A stretch of 64,000 nucleotides of DNA. Origin: Chondrosia reniformis. Taxonomy: Eukaryota; Porifera; Demospongiae; Chondrillida; Chondrillidae. Position numbers and translations under genes: made by a program. The stretch covers positions 9,004,501 to 9,068,500 of the forward strand of contig OX359189.1 of NCBI GenBank assembly GCA_947172415.1. Direction: 5' to 3'. Position 1 is the first letter of the stretch. Each line of letters starts with the position of its first letter. Shown in pieces: positions 1,590 to 37,900 of this stretch. The notes beneath the pieces are model-generated. The model saw only the letters and a list, made by a program, of their open reading frames with translations. It was not told the DNA's origin and ran no database searches.

Positions 1590-2303
1590 CCTACGTACAG
1601 TTTTGAATTAGTCACTTTGTTTTAAGAAGCCACAATAAGAAATATCAAACTAATAGTAAATAACTTTCTGCTTAAAGTTAATCGGCCATCTTGCCTCTCC
1701 CTGTATGCTGTAATATGCATTTTAATTAACCCATTATTATATATTATTATTGTCAATATGCTGAAATGATGGTCAATGGTTACAGCTAATTATCGTCAGT
1801 GATACATTTTAGTAGATAGCACTTATATATCCAAAGATATTATTATTACTGTGAAATTCTGTTTTCAGGGCATGGCTAATTGAAGTATGACAAATTACTC
1901 TATGGCTCATGTCGTTGTAATTTCCTATATACGTATAATATAGACATCAATCAATCAATCAACATCATAAAGAACGCTAATTCCCCAGTCCTGGGGGTCA
2001 TTCTATATACAAATAAAGAAAAGTATTCTATACATACATATGTTCACATTTATACATGCAGGGTGTAATAATTATATATAGTCTTCCTTGGTCTGCCTTA
2101 ATTCCTTTGCTAGACATTTAGTTGTAATTTCCTAGACATGTGGTAAAAACGGAGGAAATCATCCTGTTTTCACACTTTGTAACTCATCATGATACATCAC
2201 AGATCTTTCTGGTGCAAATTTCTGAAAAACCACAAAGTGTTGTATATATATATATACACATATGTTCTTCTTCAGTGGAGTACTAGACTAACTTAATAGT
2301 GTC
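1590..2303. other. Intergenic stretch with TATA-like run before the nitrilase gene
   Basis: No convincing exon is seen. An alternating TA run at about 2242-2260 lies roughly 45-60 bp before the ATG at 2304 and could be the TATA region of the downstream intronless gene. The rest is AT-rich with no clear structure. Confidence 0.4.
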
Positions 2304-3746
2304 ATGGATGGAAGCAATTCAAAAGAGACAAGAAGGATCGCTTTATGCCAGATTGCTCCTGCTCCTTGTAATGTATCAGAAAACACAAAGAAAGTTATAA
2401 ATTGGATTGAAAGGGCTGCTAGGGCAGGTGGAGATGTTGCCATCTTTGGTGAGATGGTACTGCAGGATTATGACCTCAAAAATTACAAAGATCTCTCAGA
2501 ACCAAAGGATGGTCCATCTTCCTTTGCCATTGCAAGTGCTGCTAAGAAATATGGAGTTGCAGTGATTTATGGTTATTCTGAAGTGGAAGGTGATCACTAT
2601 TACAATTCTGTCTTGTTCATCAACAAAGACGGAAAACAAATAGCAAATTATCGCAAAGTACATGTGTGGCCAACAGAAACAGCCTTTACTCCTGGTGATG
2701 AGCTGAGTGTGGTAGATTGGGACGGTGTGCTTAAGGTGGGGCTTGGTGTGTGTGTGGATGTGTGTATGCCAGAATTCATTCAAGCCATGGTAGTCAATGG
2801 AGGTGCTCAGTTAATTGTGATAGTAAATGCTCTAGTGGAAGGCAGAAAGTATCAAAAAACTTCCACAACACTAGTACCTGCACGTGCATTTGAAAATCGA
2901 TGTTACATTGCATATGTAGACTTGGCTGGAGAAAAGTACCTCGGTGCCTCTAGAGTATGCAATCCACATGCAGAATGTATTGTGTCTGCCTGTAGCAGCG
3001 ATGAAAACATGTTGTTGGCCACCATCCCTCTCAACACTCACAAGGATGTACCATTCCACTACCTGCCATTGCGTCGCCCCAAATTGTACCGGAATCTTTC
3101 ATTAGATTATAAAGCTGAAGCTCCCTGGAAAAGAGAGGATGCAGAGTTTGTTCAGCTTCTCTTCAGCCATCGTGCTTGTTACTATGACAACCAAATGGAA
3201 AATGTGTACACTGGTCCCAGTTGCGCTGCCCATGCTCTAGCCAGCATAGTTGAGGATAAGAAAGCAAAGATACTGGATGTAGCATCTGGCACGGGTCTTG
3301 TAGGAAAAGCCCTCTTTGATGAAGGATTCACCAACCTTGTTGCCCTTGACCGCAGTAAATCAATGCTAGAGTGTTTGGCCAAGAAGAATGTCTACTCAAA
3401 GATTATTGAAGGTTCATTTGAGGAAGAAGCAAAAAAGATAGCTAGTGGATCCTTTCAAGTGTGTACTTGTGTTGGTGCCTTTCTAACTGCTGGATTTCTT
3501 GATCCCAGTAAGACAGTTGAGGAAATGGTACGCATTGTGGAGGTGGGAGGATGTGTTCTGCTGCTTTGGAATGAAACAGAGCTGATGTATCCCCAGTGCC
3601 GGCCTACAAAGATCAATCTAGAATCAAATATTAACAAGCTCGTGAGCAGTGGAAAGTGCAAATGTGTACTTCGGGAATGTATTCCAAACTACCTGAAGGA
3701 TTGCCAAGGAATGTTGTGCATTCTCAAAAAGGAATCTGATAACTAA
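2304..3746 (+). CDS. Nitrilase-superfamily hydrolase fused to SAM-dependent methyltransferase
   Basis: A single uninterrupted 480-residue frame, unlike the intron-rich neighbours. Residues about 10-265 form a carbon-nitrogen hydrolase domain. The Glu-Lys-Cys triad is visible as E in IFGEMVLQDY, K in NYRKVHVW and C in GLGVCVDVCMPEF, so this half should hydrolyse a nitrile or amide C-N bond. Residues about 285-475 form a class I methyltransferase domain with motif I KILDVASGTGLVGKAL (SAM binding) and the later acidic strand NLVALDRSKSML. The enzyme therefore probably couples hydrolysis to methyl transfer on a related small molecule; the substrate is not readable. A TATA-like run precedes it. 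Lack of introns and a fusion architecture familiar from microbes suggest possible transfer from bacteria, but retroposition would also remove introns. The start is the first ATG of the frame. Confidence 0.85.
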   Translation: MDGSNSKETRRIALCQIAPAPCNVSENTKKVINWIERAARAGGDVAIFGEMVLQDYDLKNYKDLSEPKDGPSSFAIASAAKKYGVAVIYGYSEVEGDHYYNSVLFINKDGKQIANYRKVHVWPTETAFTPGDELSVVDWDGVLKVGLGVCVDVCMPEFIQAMVVNGGAQLIVIVNALVEGRKYQKTSTTLVPARAFENRCYIAYVDLAGEKYLGASRVCNPHAECIVSACSSDENMLLATIPLNTHKDVPFHYLPLRRPKLYRNLSLDYKAEAPWKREDAEFVQLLFSHRACYYDNQMENVYTGPSCAAHALASIVEDKKAKILDVASGTGLVGKALFDEGFTNLVALDRSKSMLECLAKKNVYSKIIEGSFEEEAKKIASGSFQVCTCVGAFLTAGFLDPSKTVEEMVRIVEVGGCVLLLWNETELMYPQCRPTKINLESNINKLVSSGKCKCVLRECIPNYLKDCQGMLCILKKESDN

Positions 3747-4096: not shown

Positions 4097-5991
4097 AATC
4101 ATTGTGGTTCCATGGGCTGATAAGAAGTTTGCTGCGTGTAAAATGGATCCTGCTCCACTAAGGTGCATGAAGATTGAAGAAGTTATTAGCAAAAAAGACG
4201 AGATCGAGTCTGAGTTGAAGGAGATGAATGAAATTTTGAAATTGGTAAATATTGACTTGACATATAGTTCTATACATAATTATGAATTATTGCTGGAAAG
4301 ATCTGCGACGTTTCTCACAGTATTGCTTTGGTAGAGAATGTCCATAATGTGTTAGTACATAAGAGATTTTAATGCAATCGACGGATATCTACTCCTGTCT
4401 CATCATGTACATGCAGCAAGGTGATGTTGGAATGAAGGACCCACTGGTGGACAATGAGGGCTATCCGAGATCTGATATTGATGTCTACGCGGTCAGAACA
4501 GCAAGAAATAGAATTATAAGTAAAATTCACATATTTAATAGTGATACACTCCGTTGCTGGGGAAACCAAGGCAATTTATATTCCACAACCGTTATATGAC
4601 TATAATAAGAGGCACTCTAGCCTCATTATGCAATGTGATATCCCGGCGATAACTCAGTAAACGCCTAAAAGCTTGCGTTATCCCACGAAAAGCCTAGGGG
4701 AGGAGTGTATAGTAGTTATACAATGTCACTTTGCGGTGTATACCTATTACATAGACCCTGTATTCTATATAATATACTGTTGGTACATCCGTGCTTAGAG
4801 AAAAACATAAACTGCATGTAGTAATGTTATGACTGACACTTTTCAAACTTAATTACAATCTCCAATTATTTTAATTATCAAGATGCGTACATTTGAGTTA
4901 CAGTTCATTTCATTTTACAGTCTTGCGCAATGACCATAAGGTGGCCATGGATGTGATAGAAGAGAAGTTGCATCAGATCCATTCTGAAGCTAAGAAACGA
5001 AATCAGAAATCGGAAGGAAATTTAGCTGCATCTGTAATGGATGCCTCAAAAGCTTTCCTAGAAGTACAAGAAGTCACAGCAGGATCTCCAGCATCCTATG
5101 CAGTGAGTGGTTATCTGTGTTTGACCACTATACTGTATGTGTGTGTAGAAATGTTAGTTCCCTATAGGTTTTGTTACAGAATAGGCATAGCATGTAGGAA
5201 AAGGGTATGTTGGATTTCTCATAAGACTCATCTAGTGAACATTGCCATATGTATTGATGGTACAGTGTACTCAATGTAATGGTTGCCATCTGGTTTGTAA
5301 AGTCAGTAACATCAGCTACCACTTTATCTCCTTTTCTGTCACTTCAGTATGAATAATCTAAGACACCATTTTTTGAATGCTATGTACATCTATTTTAGAG
5401 TAAAAGGCCTATGAGGAACTAAACCTAGTGAGTGAGAAGTTTGGATGAGGATATAAGAGTCTTCTTCTTCTTCTTCTCCACTTTGTTTGAAATTTTAATT
5501 GCTCAATACTGTTAATTGGTGTTTCTGTACTTTCAACTGTCGTAGGGTTTTCTAGAAGGAGACCTCATTGTGGAATTTGGCTCACTCAATAAAGATAACT
5601 TTAGGTCGTACAGCAATATAGTAATGATTGTTTAAAACAGCCAGGACGTAAGGATGGCTATTAGCTGAATGAAATTAATTAAATTGTTTGATAAATAATA
5701 TACTGAATGGACTCCTAGTTAATTTATCACATACTAATCTTGTGAGAAATGATTTTCTTAAATGAAATGATTTATTGGACAATATATGTCATTAATACAT
5801 GTTACCCACATTAGAGTGGAATATAGTTTGAATATTATGAGATTGCAATATCTTAGGTATTCAAGTTAGCCACTCTGTGTCCCTTTTTAATTGTACCTTA
5901 ATTCACTGCATCTCTCTCAATCTACATACATTCTTTATAATTAGAAATCTTTGAGAGTTGTTTTACTCAGAGATGGGCATGTCCATTCACT
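4097..5991 (+). repeat. Segmental duplication, left copy (PSMD9 block)
   Basis: Exons and introns here match 18913-20820 almost base for base, in the same orientation and about 14.8 kb apart. Homology begins just upstream of the PSMD9 start codon and ends inside its fifth exon at 'cattcact'. Because introns are included, this is a genomic duplication rather than a retrocopy. The two minus-strand receptor genes lie between the copies. Confidence 0.85.
4143..5991 (+). pseudogene. PSMD9: PSMD9 duplicate, truncated and with a nonsense codon
   Basis: Exons 4143-4244, 4417-4519, 4921-5102, 5546-5647 and 5945-5991 correspond one to one to the intact gene at 18960-21100. Two lesions are visible. In exon 4 the CAA codon of the intact copy is TAA at 5633-5635, which removes the end of the PDZ-like domain. 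Exon 5 stops matching at about 5991 and runs into a second copy of part of exon 3, so the GPGLLG end and the last exon are missing. It also lacks the sequence upstream of the start codon found at the other copy. A truncated protein containing the coiled N-terminus and GMKDPLVDNEGYPRSD segment could still be made if it is transcribed, so loss of function is an inference. Confidence 0.8.
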
Positions 5992-6604: not shown

Positions 6605-7915
6605 TTATTTATATATTTTTTCGAGGATCTCTTTCATTTCAGATGAATCAATATCTATGTCATTAATATATTTATTTGGTCCCAATTCAAGTAGCTCCGC
6701 ACAATTGTTCACTTTTAAAGTGGCATCTAATGCTGGTGCTGTTTTATCATTTTTGCCCTGATAAGAGACTATATTTTGACCTTTGTTACACTGAGAGAGG
6801 GGGGTTGTATTTGGACCATAATCTAAATGTGATGTAAAAGTGTCTGTATCCACTTTTCCAAGCTCAATATTACCACTCCCATTGCTTAGCTGTTCATTGT
6901 TACACTGAGAGAGGGGGGTTGTATTTGGACCATAATCTAAATGTGATGTAAAAGTGTCTGTATCCACTTTTCCAAGCTCAATATTACCACTCCCATTGCT
7001 TAGCTGTTCATTGTTAGACTGAGAGAGGGGGGTTGTATTTGGACCATAATCTAAATGTGATGTAAAAGTGTCTGTATCCACTTTTCCAAGCTCAATATTA
7101 CCACTCCCATTGCTTAGCTGTTCATTGTTAGACTGAGAGAGGGGGGTTGTATTTGGACCATAATCTAAATGTGATGTAAAAGTGTCTGTATCCGCTTTTC
7201 CAAGCTCAATATTACCACTCCCATTGCTTAGCTGTTCATTGTTAGACTGAGAGAGGGGGGTTGTATTTGGACCATAATCTAAATGTGATGTAGAAGTGTC
7301 TGTATCCACTTTTCCAAGCTCAATATTACCACTCCCATTGCTTAGCTGTTCATTGTTAGACTGAGAGAGGGGGGTTGTATTTGGACCATAATCTAAATGT
7401 GATGTAGAAGTGTCTGTATCCACTTTTCCAAGCTCAATATTACCACTCCCATTGCTTAGCTGTTCATTGTTAGACTGAGAGAGGGGGGTTGTATTTGGAC
7501 CATAATCTAAATGTGATGTAGAAGTGTCTGTATCCACTTTTCCAAGCTCAATATTACCACTCCCATTGCTTAGCTGTTCATTGTTAGACTGAGAGAGGGG
7601 GGTTGTATTTGGACCATAATCTAAATGTGATGTAGAAGTGTCTGTATCCACTTTTCCAAGCTCAATATTACCACTCCCATTGCTTAGCTGTTCATTGTTA
7701 GACTGAGAGAGGGGGGTTGTATTTGGACCATAATCTAAATGTGATGTAGAAGTGCCTGCAACCACATTTCCAAACTCAATATTACCACTCCCATTGCTTA
7801 GCTGTTCATTGTTAGATGAATTCTGGTTATTATCTGGTATAGAACTATCTACATCCCCACCACCTCCTTGCTCTGAGGTGGAAAAGCACAATTTTTGCTT
7901 TTTTTTACAATATAC

Positions 7916-7949
<34 letters not shown>

Positions 7950-10900
7950 GTTATTATTATTATTATAGGTACTGAAACTGCAACAGCAACTTTTGAGTCT
8001 CCATTTGCTGTAGTAACAACTAATACAAAAAAAATATAGAAAATATAAATAATGTGCATACATATTATACTGTAAATTCGGTTATTTATGCGGTAATTTA
8101 AATTATGCGAGAAGGTCCAAGATCGCATTTATAAGATTTCGCATAATATTTTCGTCGTATTTGCCTCCGAGCCACTTTATCGATGGCCAGTTGCAATTGT
8201 CCTTAGTCGTCATCGTTGTGAACGTTCTTCTGTCACAAATATATATTACATTAAATGGTGTACAGTTTTTTTGACACTTTTAAAGAGCAAGTTGAAGGTC
8301 AATAATAGACTCTATTATTGATCTTCAACTTGCTCTTTAGATAAGTTCGATGTAGTTAGAAGAAATCCTTACGGTAAGGATTTCTTCTAACTACATCGAA
8401 CTTATCTTTGGAGTCAGAACTTGTACTGTGTATTACTTGATTGTAGTTGTAGTGGTAATATATATGTATAATGGATCAAGACAAAAATCTCTTATGTATA
8501 TGTATATACGACTTTCAACATGCTCCAATGTATAATACAGTACAAGTTACAATATACCATAGTAATATAATATATATATATATATGCAGACTTTGTCCTC
8601 CGTTTTCTACCAAACGGAGACCTAAATGAAAAATCCCTTATTTAAAAATGAGTTTTATACCCTAATCTTTATGATGATATGCCCATTTTGTTTCTAAGTC
8701 CTTTCTTGGAGCCATATGAATTATTTATATTAATTATATTATATTATTTATATTAGATTACCTTAGTATATTGTAACTTGTACTGTATATACATATAGTA
8801 GAACTGGTTAACAAGTAATCCATAATATATACAAGGCAAAGTCTTTCTCACTATCAGTGTTAACAGTGTACGAACATTTCAACATTATATATATATTGAT
8901 TGGCAAAAGACATAAGTCCTCTATACTAACTGCCTCTATACTAGTGTGGTTACAGAGGTACTTTCTAAGTGTTTTTGAAACCAGTATACATATTTTCAAC
9001 AAGATTGTTTACGCAATGTCAAATAAAAGGTGAATTTCATATCATTCCTTTAAAATTAATAGAATATGAGCACTGTTTCTTTGCTGCAGGAGACCATTTC
9101 ACACAGTGCAAGATCAAGTTTCAAATGTATGTCATATGGTTTTATCTAAACAGTATGTTTTTATTTAAAATGATTTTGTATGTGTAAGCTATTGGTTTTC
9201 AACATTTGATTTTGTTAATCAGGATTTTATATTAATTATGCATTCTCAATTTAAGCAGTTTCTACTGTACATCTAACTCACTGTCAGTCTTTGTATTATT
9301 GTTGTAGATTGTAATACTTGTAGTTTCACTGCTTTTGTTTTCATACATTTTTGAGCAGTTGCCTCGTATAAATGCAAAAACTGCAACAGTGTAGTTGGTA
9401 TTAGGTTTTAGCTGAAATGTGAGATTCATTTCCTTTCGTGTAATTTTTTTTTTCTCTCCAGATATGGATATGTTAAAGCAAATTGTACATCCATCAAAGC
9501 AAGTGTCATCATGGTTCCATGTTATTACAGTTTCACTCTTATCATTAGTTTCCCATTTGAGGTCCCTTGGAGGCTTTGGCTGTACTATTGTATATATGAA
9601 GATACACAATGAAGGGAATGTAGTCAAACCTTGCATTAATGTGATTGTGATTAAGTAATTTAATCACTTCCCAAAGAAACACAAAGTTTTTTATGATTAT
9701 GTAAATCTAGATCTGTTGTATTTTTATCAGAGAGCTCAACAGAGTTCAAAAAGCGGTTAACCAGGAATAGGCCCATGTCCAAGATTCATTTTTTCTTCTT
9801 TTGTCAAATAGACTAGCGCTAATATGCGAACTTATATGGGCACGTAAAAGTTATAAATCGTCATAAATATTTCCGAACTAGGGAATAGACAGCCCTAAGT
9901 CCGAATGCGCTCTACAAGAAGCATGTTATAATTGTGAAAACGAAAATTTTGGTCTTCTCGGCCGCCATTTTTAATTAAGAAATGGTTTTTGGCGCATTTC
10001 TCTTGTCTGAGAGGTTATTTCGAGATTTTCGCCAAGAAAACTTTCAAATCAATTTAAAATAAGTAATATTAACAAGAAAAAACGAAGAATACAAGTAAAT
10101 AAAAAACATTTACAAAAATGATGTTAAAAGTAGGAATGGCAGTGTTCACTAATACATCTGCAAAAAGTATCGAAACAAGACAGTGATTATATGATAAGGC
10201 TAATCATACAGAAGTTGCATATATACTGAAATTTAAGTAACTTAACCATAATACACTTCTGTGTTTGGGCGCACCATTCCTACTTCAGCTTGGTGTGCCC
10301 AAACACAGAAGTGTATATATATGCAACTTCTGTATGATTAGCCTTATCATATAATCACTGTACATGTCTTGTTTCGATACATTTTGCAGATGTATTAGTG
10401 AACACTGCCATTCCTACTTCTAACATCATTTTTGTAAATGTTTTTTATTTACTTGTATATATATACCAGGGCCTGCAACATATATACGTATATAACTTGA
10501 AAGCATATACGTTCATATGATCGGCAATGCAGTCACTATATAAATCCATCAATTATTTACGGTGCATGCCTTTATAGAATTCACATCCTACCAACGTCCA
10601 TAGAAAGCAATATATTGCTTTTGATGGTAATGTCTTAATCAAAATTATGATACATTTGGTTGCCAATTACAACTTAACATTAATTAACTTGTAAGAGGTT
10701 CATTTAATGTATAATAGTTGTAAGCAAAAAGACTGCATTTTTCATGTGTTGACACATCAGGTAAAGCAACAAATTATTGTGGTAGTACGTATATAACTCG
10801 ATGATATATTCACACTCACCTATGGGATCAATCAGCAAACCTTTACTCTCAATAGATATACATTCACCATAGGTGTTAGAACAGGTAAGATTAGAATGCC

Positions 10901-25337: not shown

Positions 25338-27435
25338 TTATGCCTGAACCACATCTTTTATTGTCAATTGGCCATCACAGACCCAATCAAATTGATCTGG
25401 AACTTCTCCCTTTAGGAGTTTCTTAATAAAAGGATCTGTAATATTCTTCAAGTCATTGCGGACATGGTAAGATGTATTGTAGAAGCTGCGATCATTCTGA
25501 ATCCAATCCAGCATCAAGCCAAATTGCCTCCAATCATAGCTTTCAGCATTGGCACCTGGGAGGTCATACATACAGCTTTGGTCATACATTTCAGGGTCTA
25601 CTATTTCCTTACATTTACGTCCTCGGTCTAAATCTATTAAAACTGGCTCAAAAGTAACTGGATCAATGCAAACGTTTGGGAGATGAATGTCCAGGTGTGC
25701 ATAGCCATGTTCATGCAATTGCTTTATTGCTGCAAAAACCCCTTTTGCAAAACACATTAAGCATTTCTTAGCTTGTTCCTCAGTTAAGGGCTTTAATAAC
25801 TTTGGAAACTTGAAATACTCCACTCCAAAAAGGTCATATTTCTCTACTGACGGTCTAAGGTACCGCAGTTGATGATGGCTTTCGGAATCAGATATTTCGG
25901 AATCAGATATTTCAGAATCAGATATTTTGGAATCAGATCTAGGCCTTTTTGACATGGGATTGGATTCGTTGAACTCAAGTTTCGGAAGTAATTCCCTAAT
26001 TTTTTCAATTTTATCCTTTTGTTGTTCGCCATTAATTATAGCCAAAATTTCTTCCTCTATTTTATGCCATGCTTCTTGTTCTTTCTTCATTTTGCGAGAT
26101 GCTTCCTCCAATGCTTCATCCAATGCTTTTGATTGCAAATCCTGTAACAATAATTTTGCGTATATTTCTAATGGATACTTGAAAAAGTAGTTCTCATTTT
26201 CTAAAAGAAGAGAATAGTTGGAGGGAATCTGTTTTAATCCATCTGGAAGACCAGACAAAGGAATGGCTGTTAACTTATTGGGAGGCTCTGGAGGCAAGTT
26301 TTGAATGATATCAAAGTTAATCCTCAGCACTCTCACCATCTCCTCCATAACGTTTTCTGTTTGCAAAGGATCTACAACTATAGCAAACTTTGTATTCTTC
26401 TTCAGCCATTTAACTGTAACTTTAGCAGCGTATGCTTTGTCCTTTGCATCATCATCTGTAGCAGCATCTGGTTTGTCCTTTGCATCATCATCTGTAGTAG
26501 CATCTGGTTTGTCCTTTGCATCATCATCAGTAGCAGAATCTGGTTTGTCCTTTGCATCATCATCTGTAGCAGCATCTGGTTTGTCCTTTGCATCATCATC
26601 TGTAGCAGCATCTGGTTTGTCCTTTGCATCATCATCAGTAGCAGAATCTGGTTTGTCCTTTGCATCATCATCTGTAGCAGCATCTGGTTTGTCCTTTGAA
26701 TCATCATCTGTAGCAGCATCTGGTTTGTCCTTTGCATCATCATCAGTAGCAGCATCTGGTTTGTCCTTTGCATCATCATCAGTAGCAGCATCTGGTTTGT
26801 CCTTTGCATCATCATCAGTAGCAGCATCTGGTTTGTCAGTAAGTTTGGGAAAAGCAAATCCAGAGTATTCCAAGATTCCCAAATTGAAATTTCGCAAGTA
26901 TCTCAGCATGTTCATTAATTGTATAGAGGTTTGTTTCAATGTTTGAATAAAAGGACTTGAGTTAACCTCAACTATCAGCACAGGTACGTCTATTTTATCC
27001 TTTTCTTTATTAGAAACCTGACAGTCAGGATTTGAACGCCTTTTGCTTAGAATTTCGGGTAACTGCTCATCAATATAGAGTTCCTTATCGTATTGCGATT
27101 CGAATAACCAACCGTTCCTGTTTAATTCAGCGCGTCGCACAGCCTCATTGCAGAAAGCTACTAGACATCCCTCTATGGTCCACTCTGGTACATTATCCTT
27201 CAAAGAAGATTTCTCAATTAACTCCTTTAAATCGTATTTCTTCCCTTCTTTAGGACCTTGGTCGACAGGTCGCATATCAAATATATCAGAGAACTCAGCT
27301 ACTCCAGTTCCTCTTAACAAACTTGACAGAGACGGTCTAATTATTCGAGCAGCTATGGAAGAAATAAAACATCACGATCAACAAAAATTCCGAAAAATCA
27401 AAAAGGAGTCATAAAAACTTACCTCGAAACTCCAT
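25338..27435 (-). CDS. Nuclease-like plus kinase-like protein, paralog 1 (675 aa)
   Basis: A tiny first exon (27435-27423, MEFR) splices to 27352-25338 in phase 1. Residues 1-160 contain SNPDCQV and, after a short loop, DVPVLIVEVNS followed by an amphipathic helix with IQLMNMLRYL. This spacing resembles a PD-(D/E)XK nuclease core in which the lysine is Asn. Next come 11 near-perfect acidic 12-residue repeats (KPDAATDDDAKD), a charged helical linker and a short ISDSE repeat. The C-terminal 180 residues look like a kinase C-lobe: HLDIHLPN in place of HRDxKxxN, LIDLDRG in place of DFG, and YDWRQFGLML at the F helix. No glycine-rich loop or clear lysine is recognised. Similar nuclease and kinase pairings occur in Crinkler/RHS-type effector proteins, but homology is an inference. 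It is the first of three tandem copies, transcribed towards PDE9A. Confidence 0.75.
26438..26838 (-). repeat. 36-bp coding repeat, 11 units (paralog 1)
   Basis: Tandem 36-bp units encode KPDAATDDDAKD with occasional S, T or S/A changes. The matching arrays have 5 units in paralog 2 (about 29410-29590) and 3 in paralog 3 (about 32160-32270). Confidence 0.9.
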
Positions 27436-28249
27436 GACCTTGACAGACGATGAATAATAACGTTTACAATAGGACCCCCTTAACAATAATGCGCAATGCG
27501 CAATGTGCAATACTTAAACTTTCAAACTTTCTTTGTGCGCTTTCACACCTAGTAACTGAATAAAAGAAAGTGGCTAGAGTGCCGCGGTACTATGACAACG
27601 AGAAAAAACGACCCAAACGTGTTTGGATATACTCATGGGTCCCAGATCCTACAACAAATTTCGCGATATGCTAAACGATAAGGAAAAAAAATGAGAAAAA
27701 CGTCCATTCTCAGAGAGGGTTACAACAAATATCGCGATATACTGACGATAAGAAAAAAGAAAAAAAAACCAGTCACGTTAGTCTCTGCTTGTCTTTGAGA
27801 ACATCCACGCAGGTGCAAGCACCAGGTGTATACCATTTTAATTAATTGTACAAAAATAGTGAAGACATCCATAAAGCATTTTGAAAGATTCTTGATGTAT
27901 ATTAGCCTATCTCTCACTGTATATTATTAACGAGCGGTATAGCAAGGTTAATTGTTTCAATTTCACAAAAAAGTCACATTTTCACATTTAAAACATACAA
28001 CAGGACTATCTATCACCATATGAAGTACGGGATGTAGGGATGGCACAATAGAACAGAAACACAGGTGTTGCAGGGCCCGCATTTACTGTGTACCATCTTT
28101 TTACTTAAAAGTTTATAATATTTATTGAAATAGCTAGCCTTTTGTATCTTAAGAATGCAAACACAAATATTACAACTATAATTAAACATTGGTAAAGGAA
28201 TAAAGTGTCAAGTTTAACAGTGTTACTTAAGCGCTTCATATAATTAATA
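27436..28249. promoter_or_regulatory. Duplicated 5' flank of paralog 1
   Basis: Nearly identical to 30195-31015 upstream of paralog 2. It contains GCGCAATGCGCAATG at about 27490, a pair of about 70-bp imperfect repeats at 27651 and 27721 that both carry a CGCGATA core (the second is the perfect palindrome TATCGCGATA), and the motif gatgtagggatggcacaa shared with foldback elements. The promoter is presumed to lie close to 27436; no TATA box is evident. Confidence 0.5.
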
Positions 28250-30194
28250 TTATGCCTGAATCACATCCTTTATTGTCAATTGGCCCTCGCAGACCCAATC
28301 AAATTGATCTGGAACTTCTCCCTTTAGGAGTTTCTTAATAAGAGGATCTGTAATACTCTTCAAGTCATTGCGGACATGGTAAGATGTATTGCAGAAGCTG
28401 CGATCATTCTGAATCCAATCCAGCATCAAGCCAAATTGCCTCCAATCATAGCTTTCAGCATTGGCACCTGGGAGGTCATACATACAGCTTTGGTCATACA
28501 TTTCAGGGTCTACTATTTCCTCACAACTACGTCCTCGGTCTAAATCTATTAAAACTGGCTCAAAAGTAACTGGATCAATGCAAACATTTGGGAGATGAAT
28601 GTCCAGGTGTGCATAGCCATGTTCATGCAATTGCTTTATTGCTGCAAAAACCCCTTTTGCAAAACACATTAAGCATTTCTTAGCTTGTTCCTCAGTTAAG
28701 GGCTTTAATAACTTTGGAAACTTGAAATACTTCACTCCAAAAAGGTCATATTTCTCTACTGACGGTCTAAGGTACCGCAGTTGATGATGGCTTTCAGAAT
28801 CAGATATTTCAGAATCAGATTTAGGCCTTTTTGACATGGGATTGGATTCGTTGAACTCAGGTTTTGGTCTTTTTGAAAGTAATTCCCTAATTTTTTCAAA
28901 TGTATCCATTGGTTGTTCGCTATTAATTATTGCCAAAATTTCTTCGTTTCTTTTACGCCATGCTTCTTGTTCTTCCTCTCTTTTGCGAACTGCTTCCTCT
29001 CTTTTGCGAACTGCCTCCTTTCTTTTGCGAACTGCTTTCTTTCTTTTGCGAACTGCTTCCTCTCTTTTGCGAACTGCTTCCTCTTTTTTGCGAACTGCTT
29101 CCTTACATATCAATTCATTTAAAAGTGATCTTGCATATATTTCTAATGGATACTTGAAAAAGTAGTTCTCATTTTCTAAAAGAAGAGAATAGTTGGAGGG
29201 CAGCTGATTGATTTCCCTTGGAAGACCAGACAAAGGAATGGCTGTTAGCCTATTGGAAGGCTCTGAAGGCAAGTTTTGAATGACATCAAAGTTACTCCTC
29301 AGCACTGAAACCATCTCTTCCATAACATCTTCTCTTTTCAAAGGATCTATAACTATAGCAAACCTTGTAATCTCTTTCAGCCATTTAACTGTAACTTTAG
29401 CAGCGTATGCTTTGTCCTTTGCATCATCATCTGTGGCAGCATCTGGTTTGTCCTTTGCATCATCATCTGTAGTAGCATCTGGTTTGTCCTTTGCATCATC
29501 ATCAGTAGCAGCATCTGGTTTGTCCTTTGCATCATCATCTATAGCAGCATCTGGTTTGTCCTTTGCATCATCATCTGTAGCAGAGTGTGTTTGGTCAGCA
29601 AGTTTGGGAAAAGCAAATCCAGAGTATTCCGAGATTTCCAAATTGAAATTTCGCAAGTATCTCAGCATGTTCATTAATTGTATAGAGGTTTGTTTCAATG
29701 TTTGAATAAAAGGACTTGAGTTAACCTCAACTATCAGCACAGGTACATCTATTTTATCCTTTTCTTTATTAGAAACCTGACAGTCAGGATTTGAGCGCCT
29801 TTTGCTTAGAATTTCGGGTAACTGCTCATCAATATAGAGTTCCTTATCGTATTGCGATTCGAATAACCAACCGTTCCTGTTTAATTCAGCACGTCGCACA
29901 GCCTCATTGCAGAAAGCTACTAGACATCCCTCTATGGTCCACTCTGGTACATTATCCTTCAAAGAAGATTTCTCAATTAACTCCTTTAAATCGTATTTCT
30001 TCCCTTCTTTAGGACCTTGGTCGACAGGTCGCATATGAAATATATCAGAGAACTCAGCTACTCCAGTTCCTCTTAACAAACTGGACAGAGACGGTCTAAT
30101 TATTCGAGCAGCTATGGAAGAAATAAAACATCACGATCAACAAAAATTCCGAAAAATCAAAAAGGAGTCATAAAAACTTACCTCGAAACTCCAT
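28250..30194 (-). CDS. Nuclease-like plus kinase-like protein, paralog 2 (624 aa)
   Basis: First exon 30194-30182 (MEFR) joins 30111-28250 in phase 1. The N-terminal nuclease-like segment and the C-terminal kinase-like domain are almost identical to paralog 1, including HLDIHLPN and LIDLDRG. The middle differs: five acidic repeats instead of eleven, and a run of EAVRKREEAVRKRKKAV-type heptads that paralog 1 lacks. That run predicts a long coiled coil and is itself a tandem DNA repeat (about 28975-29105). Reading frames are intact despite these length changes, so selection or very recent origin is likely. Its 5' flank is shared with paralog 1, so both should be regulated alike. Confidence 0.75.
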
Positions 30195-31015
30195 GACCTT
30201 GACAGACGATGAATAATAACGTTTACAATAGGACCCCCTTAACAATAACTGCGCAATGCGCAATGTGCAATACTTAAACTTTCAAACTTTCTTTGTGCGC
30301 TTTCACACCTAGTAACTGAATAAAAGAAAGTGGCTAGAAGTGCCGCGGTACTATGACAACGAGAAAAAACGACCCAAACGTGTTTGGATATACTCATGGG
30401 TCCCAGATCCTACAACAAATTTCGCGATATGCTAAACGATAAGGAAAAAAAATGAGAAAAACGTCCATTCTCAGAGAGGGTTACAACAAATATCGCGATA
30501 TACTGACGATAAGAAAAAAGAAAAAAAAACAGTCACGTTAGTCTCTGCTTGTCTTTGAGAACATCCACGCAGGTGCAAGCACCAGGTGTATACCATTTTA
30601 ATTAATTGTACAAAAATAGTGAAGACATCCATAAAGCATTTTGAAAGATTCTTGATGTATATTAGCCTATCTCTCACTGTATATTATTAACGAACGGTAT
30701 AGCAAGGTTAATTGTTTCAATTTCACAAAAAAGTCACATTTTCACATTTAAAACATACAACAGGCCTATCTATTACCATATGAAGTACGGGATGTAGGGA
30801 TGGCACAATAGAATAGAAACACAGGTGTTGCAGGGCCCGCATTTACTGTGTACCATCTTTTTACTTAAAAGTTTATAATATTTATTGAAATAGCTAGCCT
30901 TTTGTAAACGTTTCTTAAGAATGCAAACACAAATATTACAACTATAATTAAACATTGGTAAAGGAATAAAGTGTCAAGTTTAACAGTGTTACTTAAGCGC
31001 TTCATATAATTAATA
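30195..31015. promoter_or_regulatory. Duplicated 5' flank of paralog 2
   Basis: Counterpart of 27436-28249 with a few substitutions and small indels, including the GCGCAATGCGCAATG run near 30250 and the TATCGCGATA palindrome near 30490. Confidence 0.5.
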
Positions 31016-32878
31016 TTATGCCTGAATCACATCCTTTATTGTCAATTGGCCCTCGCAGACCCAATCAAATTGATCTGGAACTTCTCCCTTTAGGAGTTTC
31101 TTAATAAAAGGATCTGTAATACTCTTCAAGTCATTGCGGACATGGTAAGATGTATTGTAGAAGCTGCGATCATTCTGAATCCAATCCAGCATCAAGCCAA
31201 ATTGCCTCCAATCATAGCTTTCAGCATTGGCACCTGGGAGGTCATACATACAGCTTTGGTCATACATTTCAGGGTCTACTATTTCCTCACAACTACGTCC
31301 TCGGTCTAAATCTATTAAAACTGGCTCAAAAGTAACTGGATCAATGCAAATATTTGGGAGATGAATGTCCAGGTGTGCATAGCCATGTTCATGCAATTGC
31401 TTTATTGCTGCAAAAACCCCTTTTGCAAAACACATTAAACATTTCTTAGCTTGTTCCTCAGTTAAGGGCTTTAATAACTTTGGAAACTTGAAATACTTCA
31501 CTCCAAAAAGGTCATATTTCTCTACTGACGGTCTAAGGTACCGCAGTTGATGATGGCTTTCGGAATCAGATATTTCAGAATCAGATCTAGGCCTTTTTGA
31601 CATGGGATTGGATTCGTTGAACTCAGGTTTTGGTCTTTTTGAAAATAATTCCCTAATTTTTTCAAATGCATCCATTGGTTGTTCGCTATTAATTATTGCC
31701 AAAATTTCTTCGTTTCTTTTACGCCATGCTTCTTGTTCTTCCTCTCTTTTGCGAGCTGCTTCCTCTCTTTTGCGAGCTGCTTCCTCTCTTTTGCGAGCTG
31801 CTTCCTCTCTTTTGCGAACTGCTTCCTTTCTTTTGCGAACTGCTTCCTTACATATCAATTCATTTAAAAGTGATCTTGCATATATTTCTACTGGATACTT
31901 GAAAAAGTAGTTTTCATTTTCTAAAAGAAGAGAATAGTTGGAGGGCAGCTGATTGATTTCCCTTGGAAGACCAGACAAAGGAATGGCTGTTAGCCTATTG
32001 GAAGGCTCTGGAGGCAAGTTTTGAATGACATCAAAGTTAATTCTCAGCACTGAAACCATCTCTTCCATAACATCTTCTCTTTTCAAAGGATCTATAACTA
32101 TAGCAAACCTTGTAATCTCTTTCAGCCATTTAACTGTAACTTTAGCAGCGTATGCTTTGTCCTTTGCATCATCATCTGTAGCAGCATCTGGTTTGTCCTT
32201 TGCATCATCCACTGTAGCAGCATCTGGTTTGTCCTTTGCATCATCATCAGTAGCAGCATCTGGTTTGTCAGTAAGTTTGGGAAAAGCAAATCCAGAGTAT
32301 TCCGAGATTCCCAAATTGAAATTTCGCAAGTATCTCAGCATGTTCATTAATTGTATAGAGGTTTGTTTCAATGTTTGAATAAAAGGACTTGAGTTAACCT
32401 CAACTATCAGCACAGGTACGTCTATTTTATCCTTTTCTTTATTAGAAACCTGACAGTCAGGATTTGAGCGCCTTTTGCTTAGAATTTCGGGTAACTGCTC
32501 ATCAATATAGAGTTCCTTATCGTATTGCGATTCGAATAACCAACCGTTCTTGTTTAATTCAGCACGTCGCACAGCCTCATTGCAGAAAGCTACTAGACAT
32601 CCCTCTATGGTCCACTCTGGTACATTATCCTTCAAAGAAGATTTCTCAATTAACTCCTTTAAATCGTATTTCTTCCCTTCTTTAGGACCTTGGTCGACAG
32701 GTCGCATATCAAATATATCAGAGAACTCAGCTACTCCAGTTCCTCTTAACAAACTGGACAGAGACGGTCTAATTATTCGAGCAGCTATGGAAGAAATAAA
32801 ACATCACGATCAACAAAAATTCCGAAAAATCAAAAAGGAGTTATAAAACTTACCTCGACACTTCGCTTGACACTGCAT
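31016..32878 (-). CDS. Nuclease-like plus kinase-like protein, paralog 3 (597 aa)
   Basis: Exon 2 (32784-31016) is close to paralog 2, with the coiled EAARKREEAARKREE region and only three acidic repeats. The first exon is different: 32878-32854 encodes MQCQAKCR instead of MEFR, and homology to the other copies stops a few bases before its donor site. This copy therefore starts from an unrelated upstream sequence that lies back to back with TMEM147. One acidic repeat carries a change to AATVDDA. The catalytic-loop-like HLDIHLPN and LIDLDRG are retained, so it is predicted to fold like its sisters. It was probably the source or the end point of the tandem duplication; which one cannot be told from this window. 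Confidence 0.75.
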
Positions 32879-33044
32879 CCCTCGATGTCGTTTGCAATAA
32901 CTGCGCAATGCGCGAAAGTATATGCTAAATAATATCACGTTGCTATGCAACGCTCGGGGATCATGTGACCAGGAATGAATCGGAGTCTTGCGCAAAGCTC
33001 CAAGAGTTAATCGTTCGTTTCTCTCCGTTTATGTGGCACCAAGC
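32879..33044. promoter_or_regulatory. Compact bidirectional promoter between paralog 3 and TMEM147
   Basis: Only 166 bp separate the two divergent start codons. The interval is richer in CpG than the surroundings and contains TGCGCAATGCGCG at about 32903, close to an NRF1-type palindrome but with one extra base. No TATA box is seen. Joint control of both genes is an inference from spacing. Confidence 0.5.
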
Positions 33045-34778
33045 ATGACGCTATTTCATCTGGGCAATTGTCTCGTCCTGGCTTATGCTCCCTACTTCAT
33101 TTTATACAAGTACTCAGGACTGTGAGTTGCACCAGATGGTCAGTGAAGGTAATGCGGTTAGGAGTGAATTTTACTTTTTAGTTCAGAGAATAATGCTTTT
33201 TGGAGATGCGTGAAAGCGGGAGGAGCGTACTTCGTAACGCAGTTGTGCAAGGTAACAGGGTATTAATCAGCTTGACACTACTACGCAGCTGTCTTTTGTA
33301 GTCTATAACTGATAACTTGTACAAATATGTAGCATACATGATATCTAGGTAGGTAGGTAGACATTTTTTAGACAGGAAGTACATGTGGCTGGTCCAACTT
33401 GTAGTCTCCTTGAATGACATTTTTCCTGCATAGCTATTCATAATGGCAGTCCTGTTTCCGGTCAGTGAGGACATTAATCAAACCGTCACTGATGTGAGTA
33501 CTACTGCTACCTTTTCTATCTCATACTTTAGCGACCCTCTCCTCTATTTGTACATGGTCACAGCTAATGATTTCCTAAGACTAATTCATTTTTACTACTT
33601 GTAGTAACTTAAATTTTTAAAGTCTTTGTTAAAAGTTCCACTTCTAGACTGCTCAGGTCCCCATTTCCAATTTAATATGATTTCAAATTGACTGTGGATC
33701 TGGGTCCAAATTTCCTTCCTCTCCTCAAAGGAACTGATGCAGTGTACTGCTGATCTGTTTGACTTTGTGGGGATCTACTTGTGTCTTTCTCGAGTACTGG
33801 CTAAGGGAGAAATGAAGATTACAGCACTTGCAGTTGGGTGGGGAACTGCAGAGATTATTGGAACCAGGTTGATACCTCTTTGGATTGGAGCACGGGGAAC
33901 AGAGTTTGACTGGCAATACATTCAAGAGTCATTTGGAGCCAACGTCAACTTGGTGAGTTATGGTTAGTGGTATAGTCATTGCATATACTGAAATGGATTA
34001 TTTCAGTATTGTTGGGTGTCAGTGATTCATATCGACTGTATGATGTATGATATTATATGATAAATATGCCGTGTGTCTGTAACTAGGTGAATCACATGAC
34101 TGTTGCCGTGTGTCTGTAACTAGGTGAATCACATGACTGTTGCCGTGTGTCTGTAACTAGGTGAATCACATGACTGTTGCCGTGTGTCTGTAACTAGGTG
34201 AATCACATGACTGTTGCCGTGTGTCTGTAACTAGGTGAATCACATGACTGTTGCCGTGTGTCTGTAACCAGGTGAATCACATGACTGTTGCCGTGTGTCT
34301 GTAACTAGGTGAATCACATGACTGTTGCCGTGTGTCTGTAACTAGGTGAATCACATGACTGTTGCAGCTCTCCTGTGGATATGGAGTAGGAACGATGCAA
34401 AGAAGTTGCACCTTCTCTCTGCAGTTGTCTTCCTCGGGTTGCTGTCCTACAAGTCAGCTCTCCTTCAGTAAGTATTCAATGCCAAACCATTCTAAGTACA
34501 TAATGTACTATTAGCATTATCATGAACTGTGCTATTTAGAAATTGCATTTGAACATTCAGTTTTAAGTTAGCCTAATAAACAAATATGGTAGGACTTGCT
34601 AATAGCACCTAATAATGATGATTGATTATATACTGCTACGTATTTCTCATTCCACAGTATTTTGGAGATTGCATTCCGTCTAAACGCATGGATGCTTGTC
34701 ACTTGTGATATTGCTGTTTCTTCAACCATTGCACTTTGTACTTTAAACTTTTACCAACAAACTGCTAACAAGTTGTAG
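33045..34778 (+). CDS. TMEM147: Transmembrane protein 147
   Basis: Six exons, 33045-33121, 33182-33251, 33434-33493, 33731-33952, 34346-34467 and 34658-34778, join in phase to 223 residues; the human protein is 224. The start [18 protein letters not shown] is nearly that of vertebrate TMEM147, and [19 protein letters not shown] matches its most conserved block. Several hydrophobic segments predict a multipass ER membrane protein, and in vertebrates it associates with the translocon and the nicalin-NOMO complex. The fifth exon's acceptor lies in the last of eight 37-bp tandem repeats, so intron 4 has seven additional copies of the same acceptor and exon start. The start codon is 166 bp from the divergent kinase-like paralog. 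Confidence 0.95.
34068..34363 (+). repeat. 37-bp tandem repeat carrying a splice acceptor, eight units
   Basis: Eight units of 37 bp place the acceptor AG at 34086, 34123, 34160, 34197, 34234, 34271, 34308 and 34345. Each unit includes ctgtaactag (ctgtaaccag in the sixth) followed by gtgaatcacatgactgttg, the first bases of TMEM147 exon 5. Only the last unit continues into the rest of the exon. Confidence 0.95.
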
Positions 34779-34981: not shown

Positions 34982-37900
34982 ATGGCTACCACTTCAGATG
35001 GTTCAGAGATGGAAGTCACGTAAGTCGTCGTTTCACCGAAACGTGCAATCTATATGTAGGTACTGTATACGCTTAGTTATAATTCTCTAAAGTATAAGTC
35101 GGAGATATACTCAATACACTATACGTATACCCATATATACCCATACCCATATACTCATGGACTACATACTAATCTATGATATAATGCAGTAACTGCATTT
35201 CTAAACTTGTAGTCCGGCGGTTGAGCCAAACGTCAAGAAATCAGCTCCTGTAAGAGAGAGAAAGCGCCCGATACCCGCCAAGTCCATTCTCCTTGGCGAA
35301 TACACTAAGACAGAGGAACCCAAGATGCAGAGGAGAAGCAGAAGTAGCCGGCAGCAGAAGATGTACAATTCAAAGTTGAGGGTCCTCAAAAGAGCAGCCA
35401 AATCTATTGTTTTTGTGAGCACACCTTGAAGGCTGTTCTACCAGTACCAACAAATTAGCATGATCATATCTGTTGTCCCCACTCACATCATTTGATACTG
35501 GATGATGATACTGGATGATGATGATGATGATGACTTCAAAGCTTTAAGATTGGCTATTTCTCTCACTTGCCGCCATCCATATTCAAACTCGTACATGTCA
35601 TCCATTTCATCACATAATATCAACTAGGTACTATAGTCTATCTAATCATTGTGTGTGTGTGTTTATCATTTTAGGAGAATGTATCGCTTGCTGATAGGAT
35701 TGAGTCAATTCAAAGGCGCATAGCAGCTGCCAGTGAGGAGAGGAGTTTCCTCCTTACAAAGCTCTTGGAGTACCAAGCCAGTGGAGTCAAGCCCAAACCA
35801 GTAACCACTGATGTACCAATGAAAACACCGGCATCCAACCTTCTATCTCCTCTGCCCGGTAAGATTTTGGGGTTTTCAGCCATTTTGTTCAAGCCACTTC
35901 TGTCCTGTTAACTTACATAGATGGTCACATGCAAGTCACATGATCTGAAGTACATATATACTTTAATCAAATGTCTTCTCATCCTTGTGAGTATAGCTAA
36001 GCCAAAAGTTATGACAAAGAGACGAGCAAAGGTTCCCTCGCCTGCCTCCTGCAACAGTGTGACGCAATCCCCCATCCAGCCCTCCCAGCTGTCCGATGTG
36101 GCCTCTCCCAAACAGATGGATCTGGCAAAAGGGAAGAGAGGCGGAGTTAAGAGGATTCAAGCAATACCCATGAATGAGGACGGTGAGATGGTCTATAAAT
36201 GTACGTAGTTAACAAGTAATTCTCTCAAGAAATTTTAAATTTTCACTTAATTCTTAAGTTGAATGGTTGTGAAATTTCCTTAGCTTCAATTTCCTCCAAT
36301 ATTTCATTGGGTCATGTTGTTGTTTACAGTCGTATGGAGACCCAATGACTGACTATAGGAGTCTTTAGTGGGTTACAGGACATTTTCTGTTTTTGGTAGA
36401 TATTTTCAACAGTACCATGCTGTTTATTTTGCCAAGTGGTACCTCCCCCTTGTGGTACCTCCCCCTTGTGGTACCTCCCCCTTGTGGTACCTCCCCCTTG
36501 TGGTACCTCCCCCTTGTGGTACCTCCCCCTTGTGGTACCTCCCCCTTGTTGTACCTCTCCCTTGTTGTACCTCTCCCTTGTTGTACCTCTCCCTTGTTGT
36601 ACCTCCCCCTTGTGGTACCTCCCCCTTGTGGTTGGTTAAGTGACATGGCATTCTCTTAATTAGATTACATGATTGAGAGCTCCTAGCTCATGCACTAACC
36701 ACTGACCAATTATTTGTTAGATAAGATAGTCTCTAGGTTGCTTAGCAACGGGATGTACCTAGTCACGAGAGTCCGTAATCAGAAATGAGTTGCTTCAGTT
36801 GAATCATCTCATGTACTGTAGAATATCCATAGTAACACCTATATACTACTAACCATGTATCCAATATATACATCTCCATAGGAACGCCTGTATTTCCTAT
36901 TGTGATTGGTACGTTGAAGGTGCTGGATTTAGGCAAGATTGTTCATGATAGAGCCAGTTTTCACTCTGAACGCTATCTCCTACCAGTTGGATATACCAGC
37001 ATTAGAATATACCCCAGCATTAGGGAGCCAAGTAGCAAGTGTGAATATACCTGCAAGATCCTGGATGCAGGGGAAGCCCCCTTGGTAAGCAGGTTAACTG
37101 ATGACGACATCATCAGTTAGGATGGAGGAAGTGAAGAAGGAAGTGTGTCTGATAGTGCCATTCAAAACACAACATTCACAATGATTCTTCCTTGTTTGCT
37201 TAACCAGGTGTTTCCAATCACCTAATTTCAGTAATGATGTACATAATTCATACAGGATGCCCTACTCATTTCTCAGTGCCTCTTAATGATTATACTTCCC
37301 ATACCATATTCTTCTATATAGAGGGAAAGTTATGTTTATTTAAGGATATTTTGACTGTTTTGTGAAGTACCTCACAGCATGTGTAACCACAAGTGTTTGT
37401 TTTGTCTTTTATCTATAGTCTCACAGTACAACAGACCAACTTTGATAAGTCCATTATCAGCCATTTTTCAAAATTTAATTTAACCCTTTGGTGCATATAT
37501 AGTATATATGCACATTTTTCATTAAATATAGCGAATAGTGAATTAATTTTCCCCACAAAATGTGCTATATGTAATGTTGTAAAGCATTTAATTCATGTAT
37601 AAGAAAAACTTGATTTATTAACTAAATTTCCTCTTCCCATTCATTCTAACTGTACCTTGATATAATACAACATATTATGATTAAAAAGGTATTTTCCCAT
37701 TCCCATTTTGCAGTTTGAAATGGCACCAGCTGATGATCCTGATAACATAGTTAGAGGGTCTTCCTCATCTCAGTGCCACGCCCAAGTATTAAGGGCTATA
37801 AACAAGGCTAGGTTGGTATCACCATATTTGGTCAACATCTAGTTTCAATATTACCCATTAATCAAATAGATAATTATAATAATTGCATAATGAAAATTAC

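Follow-up and report, generated by a model that had tools for sequence, protein, structure and literature searches.

TMEM147 of the sponge Chondrosia reniformis carries a tandem array of splice acceptors at the junction of intron 4 and exon 5, which raises the questions of how the spliceosome chooses among eight near-identical sites and whether the seven surplus copies have a role. The window examined here is the whole 64,000-nucleotide stretch of DNA that was analysed (C1:9004501-9068500), and genome-wide searches covered 117,379,552 bases on 15 contigs. Identification of the gene does not depend on the array: six joined exons give 223 codons without a stop, and the product matches Pfam family PF09767 (DUF2053; 1.4e-61) and, over residues 1-220, solved chains named Transmembrane protein 147 (6.3e-55). 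Exon edges are predictions set by homology and consensus (Table 1), and the shortest intron of the gene is 60 nt. The junction of exons 4 and 5 is ungapped in the alignment to the solved chain, so the AG ending at 34345 must serve for the conserved protein, and the 223-aa product was obtained with this last acceptor only.

A genome-wide search for the TMEM147 family returned three places, two of them exons of the window gene and one on C5. The C5 match, on the minus strand at about 4920-5141 of G000:C5:1698000-1707999, covers family positions 1-27; it is a truncated copy that retains exon 1 and a portion of exon 2, and its DNA is 94.6% identical to window positions 33007-33224. It was considered as a second copy for comparison and rejected, since its truncation makes it uninformative on intron 4. 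The partial copy adjoins copies of the repeated neighbour gene of window 24-33 kb, and represents a duplicated head-to-head gene pair. At 25341-32803 on the minus strand of the window lie three paralogous ORFs of 677, 626 and 595 aa, all of which match one stretch of the same C5 locus. Each contains a 36-bp array (11.5, 5.2 and 3.5 copies), two of the three also contain a 21-bp array, and none has a Pfam family at 0.001.

Table 1. Features of TMEM147 and its acceptor array, in window coordinates; a slash marks a splice boundary here and in the text.
Feature	Position	Strand	Basis
Exon 1, coding part from ATG	33045..33121	+	collinear with TMEM147 chain
Exon 2	33182..33251	+	collinear with TMEM147 chain
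Exon 3	33434..33493	+	collinear with TMEM147 chain
Exon 4, phase 0 end (...AACTTG)	33731..33952	+	collinear with TMEM147 chain
Intron 4, 393 nt; donor GTGAGT, predicted U1 duplex -9.2 kcal/mol	33953..34345	+	
Sole full match to the branch-point motif YTNAY within intron 4 (TTCAT; A at 34029), 57 nt upstream of the decoy 1 AG	34026..34030	+	motif
Minisatellite, period 37, 8.1 copies, 99% matches	34067..34365	+	TRF
Decoy acceptor 1 (TAG); only unit directly preceded by non-repeat intron	34084..34086	+	
GTGAAT donor-like sequence abutting decoy 1; AG/GTGAAT at each of 8 junctions	34087..34092	+	U1 duplex prediction
Decoy acceptor 2 (TAG)	34121..34123	+	
Decoy acceptor 3 (TAG)	34158..34160	+	
Decoy acceptor 4 (TAG)	34195..34197	+	
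Decoy acceptor 5 (TAG)	34232..34234	+	
Decoy acceptor 6 (CAG), sole variant unit; CAG/GTGAATCA is the array's strongest donor-like U1 duplex, predicted -8.4 kcal/mol	34269..34271	+	
Decoy acceptor 7 (TAG); 37 nt retained if used	34306..34308	+	
Candidate branch point (ATGAC, A at 34321) in the exon 5 copy of unit 7, 24 nt upstream of the AG end of the real acceptor	34318..34322	+	motif; inference
Real acceptor (TAG)	34343..34345	+	exon join and homology
Exon 5, 122 nt; repeat extends over its first 20 nt	34346..34467	+	
Exon 6, to stop codon	34658..34778	+	

The array consists of head-to-tail copies of a 37-bp unit, within the 10-100 bp that defines a minisatellite, and spans the intron 4/exon 5 junction over 299 bp; a repeat of this length at 99% matches is not a product of chance. 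Each unit contains exactly one AG, the repeated stretch reaches 20 nt into exon 5, and the real acceptor lies inside unit 8. The first-pass annotation had described an eight-copy acceptor array in TMEM147 with the last copy as the intron 4/exon 5 junction, seven decoys upstream and a single cag unit, and all of this was borne out by TRF, by the protein matches and by the exon join, including each of the eight AG ends (34086, 34123, 34160, 34197, 34234, 34271, 34308 and 34345). The CAG for TAG in the sixth unit is the one variant base across the eight units; over the 28 possible pairs of units this amounts to seven differences (0.68% per bp). Unit 1 is preceded by non-repeat intron and unit 8 is followed by non-repeat exon, and these edges reveal the single-copy ancestor. 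Both edges have TGC in common (taTGCcgtg and gtTGCagc), and this is a possible slippage microhomology for the birth of the array. A search of the 117.4-Mb genome with the 34-base unit core, allowing up to 3 mismatches, found eight forward and no reverse matches, all within the TMEM147 array; the reversed core, used as a control under the same conditions, found none.

The outcome of decoy use does not vary with the decoy. It had been proposed that an upstream acceptor shifts the frame unless three or six units are retained, and this proposal fails, the number of units being irrelevant. The first retained unit reads GTG AAT CAC ATG ACT GTT GCC GTG TGT CTG TAA; because exon 4 ends in phase 0 and this TAA stands in the first retained unit, all decoys lead to the same product whatever the copy number. 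In the joined sequences, all seven gave a 153-aa product with ten codons after exon 4 and then the stop, and array length is, on these predicted joins, invisible at the protein level. Under a rule drawn from vertebrates, an mRNA is marked for nonsense-mediated decay when its stop lies upstream of the last exon junction by more than about 50 nt. The decoy stop lies 126-348 nt upstream of that junction in each of the seven cases, and by this distance every decoy would be a poison splice site. It is expected that nonsense-mediated decay eliminates the decoy products or that they persist as the 153-aa truncated protein. The first 20 nt after exon 4 (GTGAATCACATGACTGTTGC) are common to all eight junctions, and the next base is A at the real site and C at a decoy; short read overhangs therefore cannot separate the two.

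Comparison of tract, AG and predicted fold found no local mark of the last copy. Polypyrimidine content is 10/17 in every unit, and among the five native TMEM147 acceptors the real intron 4 acceptor ties with that of intron 1 for fewest pyrimidines. Against the consensus NCAG/G as given in PMC10809524, the CAG of decoy 6 is closer than the TAG of the real site. What distinguishes the real site is position, with the 122-nt exon 5 and its own donor adjoining. Masking of the decoys by RNA structure was considered and found no support: intron 4 with exon 5 folds with z = +0.91, and 80 of 100 shuffles were at least as stable. Predicted unpaired probability ranges from 0.34 to 0.54 over the eight sites (0.54 at decoy 1, 0.42 at the real site). 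Candidate branch points for the real acceptor do occur in unit 7, with ATGAC, ATCAC and GTAAC at 24, 29 and 41 nt from the real AG end, each matching YTNAY at four of five positions. The first AG after a branch point is generally favoured by scanning, and since the sole full YTNAY match of the intron precedes decoy 1, scanning of this kind would favour decoy 1. The position of this motif is the best reason to expect leakage, and speaks against a simple last-site rule.

Although the repeated site is an acceptor and not a donor, the other half of each junction is donor-like, a feature that the first-pass annotation had overlooked. All eight junctions read YAG/GTGAAT and contain the AG/GT of a dual-specific splice site, so that each unit is a candidate site of this type, its dual use being predicted. 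GTGAAT matches GTRAGT at five of six positions, with A instead of G at +5. In all seven intronic copies an acceptor directly abuts this donor-like sequence, which by sequence is the arrangement of a recursive splicing ratchet point. Such points are known from introns of many kb, and intron 4, at 393 nt, is not a long intron. Duplexes with a U1 sequence not taken from the sponge were predicted at -6.8 kcal/mol for TAG/GTGAATCA, -8.4 kcal/mol for the CAG unit and -5.4 kcal/mol for the rebuilt TTG/GTGAATCA, compared with -5.5 (intron 1) to -9.2 kcal/mol for the five native TMEM147 donors. Of the 4114 plus-strand GTs of the window, 3.1% equal or exceed the unit donor in score and 7.9% the rebuilt donor. 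A decoy join puts the end of exon 4 before GTGAAT and would thus rebuild a 5′ splice site, with 37-259 nt, depending on the decoy, left for re-splicing to remove (74-259 nt for two or more retained units). Re-splicing after decoy 7 looks unlikely; this decoy would be the least rescuable, because its 37 nt fall short of the shortest TMEM147 intron.

The position of the array carries little information in itself. In a 264-kb sample, made up of the window and 20 loci of 10 kb at round coordinates on C1-C6, TRF found 48 arrays with a period of 10-120 and at least 4 copies. Twelve of these lie in the window, all with at least 92% matches; half of the total (24/48) are below 80%, and clean arrays are over-represented in the window relative to the sample. 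AGGT on either strand occurs in 4 of the 48, and YAGGTRA in the TMEM147 array only. Under random placement, about 0.38 overlaps like that of TMEM147 would be expected for the 12 arrays of the window, an estimate that assumes 6.2 introns in every gene and takes no account of selection or clustering. That this array covers an acceptor is therefore weak evidence for any particular role. Other arrays of the window include a twelve-copy 16-bp array downstream of TMEM147 (36436-36632, 97% matches), with AGGT on the minus strand, and a nine-copy 114-bp array, 99% alike and with a unit that is a multiple of 3, inside a 507-aa ORF (6608-8128, minus strand). This ORF matches NuBaID_C at 6.2e-10 as a whole protein, with no single stretch above threshold alone. 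Elsewhere in the window (2292-3743, plus strand) a 484-aa ORF runs without interruption and contains both a methyltransferase and a carbon-nitrogen hydrolase domain; at least one relative was confirmed among the matches listed from bacterial and archaeal genomes, 26% identical over residues 2-270.

The notion that splice-motif arrays form a special class in this genome was rejected. Chains of three AGGTRANT number 570 forward and 491 reverse genome-wide versus 677 and 491 for the reversed motif, counts that refer to overlapping chains and not to arrays, to which one repeat family can contribute many entries, and whose listed places are on C1 and C2. At least 14 other arrays were recognized by eye among the matches listed, and three were inspected. 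One, in a DNA polymerase epsilon gene whose flanking exons matched at 1.9e-56, was discarded as an acceptor array, with AGGTAACT on the antisense strand and inside a 264-nt intron; the other two showed no clear exon at the array edge in the ORF lists. The minisatellite in the polymerase epsilon catalytic subunit gene (G000:C2:1201900-1203800, 804-1067) has a unit of about 34 bp and takes up most of its intron; it begins about 14 nt past the donor and stops about 17 nt short of the acceptor, so that neither site is covered.

The age of the array can be gauged against allelic variation. K-mer completeness is given as 69.43% for the primary assembly, 74.54% for the alternate and 93.73% for both combined at k = 31 (PMC12181767), from which we infer a haplotype difference of about 1.0%. 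The same paper lists RNA reads of the specimen (ERR10177766), the alternate haplotype (GCA_947172445.1) and HiFi reads (ERR10224860). Divergence between units does not exceed the haplotype difference, which suggests that the array is about as young as ordinary alleles, or has been homogenised, although an age that rests on one variant site is a poor estimate. As unit divergence is low, variation in array length between alleles is likely.

Repeats over splice sites are known from a few other genes, among them IFI6 (6-16, G1P3), whose minisatellite unit is reportedly about 12 bp. Judging by the title of its 1995 description, the IFI6 minisatellite resembles that of TMEM147 in providing a gene with several copies of the same splice site, and differs in that these are multiple donor sites. 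Human ABCA7 has a 25-bp VNTR in intron 18, the first GT of which is the exon 18 donor; as in TMEM147, the unit carries the real splice site and the decoys lie on the intron side, and retention of one unit leads to a premature stop, in ABCA7 by frame shift (PMC5954066). The isoform with one retained unit is described there at 2 ± 1% across tissues and as unaffected by VNTR size, while exon 19 skipping rises with VNTR size and expression tracks it inversely (PMC5954066). The ABCA7 repeat is on the donor side and lacks an exon copy, whereas that of TMEM147 is on the acceptor side with an exon fragment in each unit; the former is also far longer, proven polymorphic, measured in RNA and reportedly associated with disease (PMC5954066).

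Other systems share single properties with the array. In the UBC tandem array each unit has an AG/GT that could act as either type of splice site, intron length can equal a multiple of the unit, and use as 5′ or 3′ site is documented; its units are whole coding monomers, whereas that of TMEM147 has 37 bp, a length not divisible by 3, holds a stop and has predicted dual use only (PMC10809524). Recursive splicing ratchet points also juxtapose acceptor and donor and have the donor rebuilt, and are described from long introns, in contrast to the 393 nt of intron 4 (PMC8605326, PMC6110457). Intron gain by duplication of an AG/GT proto-splice site similarly yields a spliceable surplus with premature stops, but makes a new intron, while the TMEM147 duplication lengthened an existing one (PMC2891723, PMC4974935). 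At NAGNAG and other tandem acceptors, sites compete at one junction as they may here, although at a spacing of a few nucleotides and often in frame, compared with a 37-nt spacing, eight copies and poison products only (PMC2279118, PMC1449888). Among the matches listed from open-licence literature on minisatellites, splicing and intron gain, no title or abstract opening describes an acceptor-side array like this one. The TMEM147 array is the acceptor-side counterpart of the known cases, with an exon fragment per unit and a stop that turns each decoy into a poison site.

On balance, we think it probable that this is a young minisatellite over an acceptor with no regulation of its own. It would have been born over the TMEM147 intron 4/exon 5 junction, probably by slippage at the 3-bp TGC microhomology, and have grown to eight near-identical copies. 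The last AG would make most of the productive mRNA, preferred because it adjoins a normal-sized exon and because a usable branch point may lie in the exon 5 copy of unit 7. Some splicing would leak to upstream copies and meet the same in-frame stop after ten codons, and part of this leakage, where two or more units (74 nt and up) are retained, might be re-spliced to the correct mRNA because each junction reads AG/GTGAAT. The order of transcription, which presents the decoys before the real site, speaks against this account. Of the three roles put forward by the first-pass annotation, a source of noise is the most plausible. A splicing buffer is unsupported and a length-dependent switch finds no support: the copies are nearly indistinguishable locally, the fold is no stronger than in shuffles and chains of AGGTRANT show no excess over those of the motif reversed.

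Habitual joining of exon 4 to an early copy, with the donor TTG/GTGAAT rebuilt and the rest of the array excised in one or more further steps, would turn the upstream copies into ratchet points and make decoy use self-correcting. This agrees with the YAG/GTGAAT at every junction, with the place of the sole YTNAY match before decoy 1, with a rebuilt donor close to the native one of intron 1 and unit donors within the native range, and with retained lengths of 74-259 nt that exceed the shortest native intron; tandem dual-specific sites are, moreover, described as in use in human UBC (PMC10809524). We nevertheless consider such stepwise removal unlikely. The rebuilt donor is weak, being equalled or bettered by several percent of the window's plus-strand GTs on energies that depend on a U1 not taken from the sponge, its +5 base is not G, the final step from decoy 7 would take out 37 nt only, and ratchet points are described as abundant in long introns (PMC8605326), whereas intron 4 has 393 nt. 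More doubtful is the extended version, in which the array would be a self-correcting splicing ladder of routine early-copy joins, each rebuilding a donor and followed by excision of the remaining 74-259 nt, and a conserved gene would tolerate, and perhaps depend on, recursive splicing in a 393-nt intron that a young minisatellite has enlarged.

It is also unlikely that copy number tunes the level of TMEM147, with decoys competing, wrong products decaying and a longer array giving less protein, as a quantitative trait locus between individuals and not a regulated switch. All decoys being poison irrespective of their number, the dose would be set by competition alone, and the low unit divergence suggests that length does vary; the precedent of ABCA7 cuts both ways, as its expression and exon 19 skipping follow VNTR size while its retained-unit isoform is described as not doing so (PMC5954066). 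An inert array, in which splicing goes essentially always to the exon-proximal site and never to a decoy, seems distinctly improbable to us. Homology demands the last site, and exon definition favours the acceptor copy nearest the donor of the downstream exon, here exon 5, but the eight copies are identical over 37 bp save one base in one unit and no local feature compared marks the last. Tandem arrays are commonly prone to assembly error, yet a collapsed or expanded array is very hard to credit here: 299 bp is far below HiFi read length, the assembly was built from 10.31 Gb in 0.80 million HiFi reads at about 70x with a consensus quality of 69.8 (PMC12181767), and one unit has its own variant, so the copies are not all alike.

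TMEM147 of C. reniformis offers a natural experiment in which the spliceosome must choose among eight acceptors that are near-identical in tract and AG and differ in position. The read-out is unambiguous, as the last acceptor alone yields the full protein, and if copy number varies between sponges, individuals would amount to a natural titration of scanning, exon definition and re-splicing. Should the junction simply be leaky, the array would be an ordinary by-product of minisatellite density. It also illustrates how, in a compact and minisatellite-rich genome, poison sites can accumulate in a conserved gene while its reading frame is kept.
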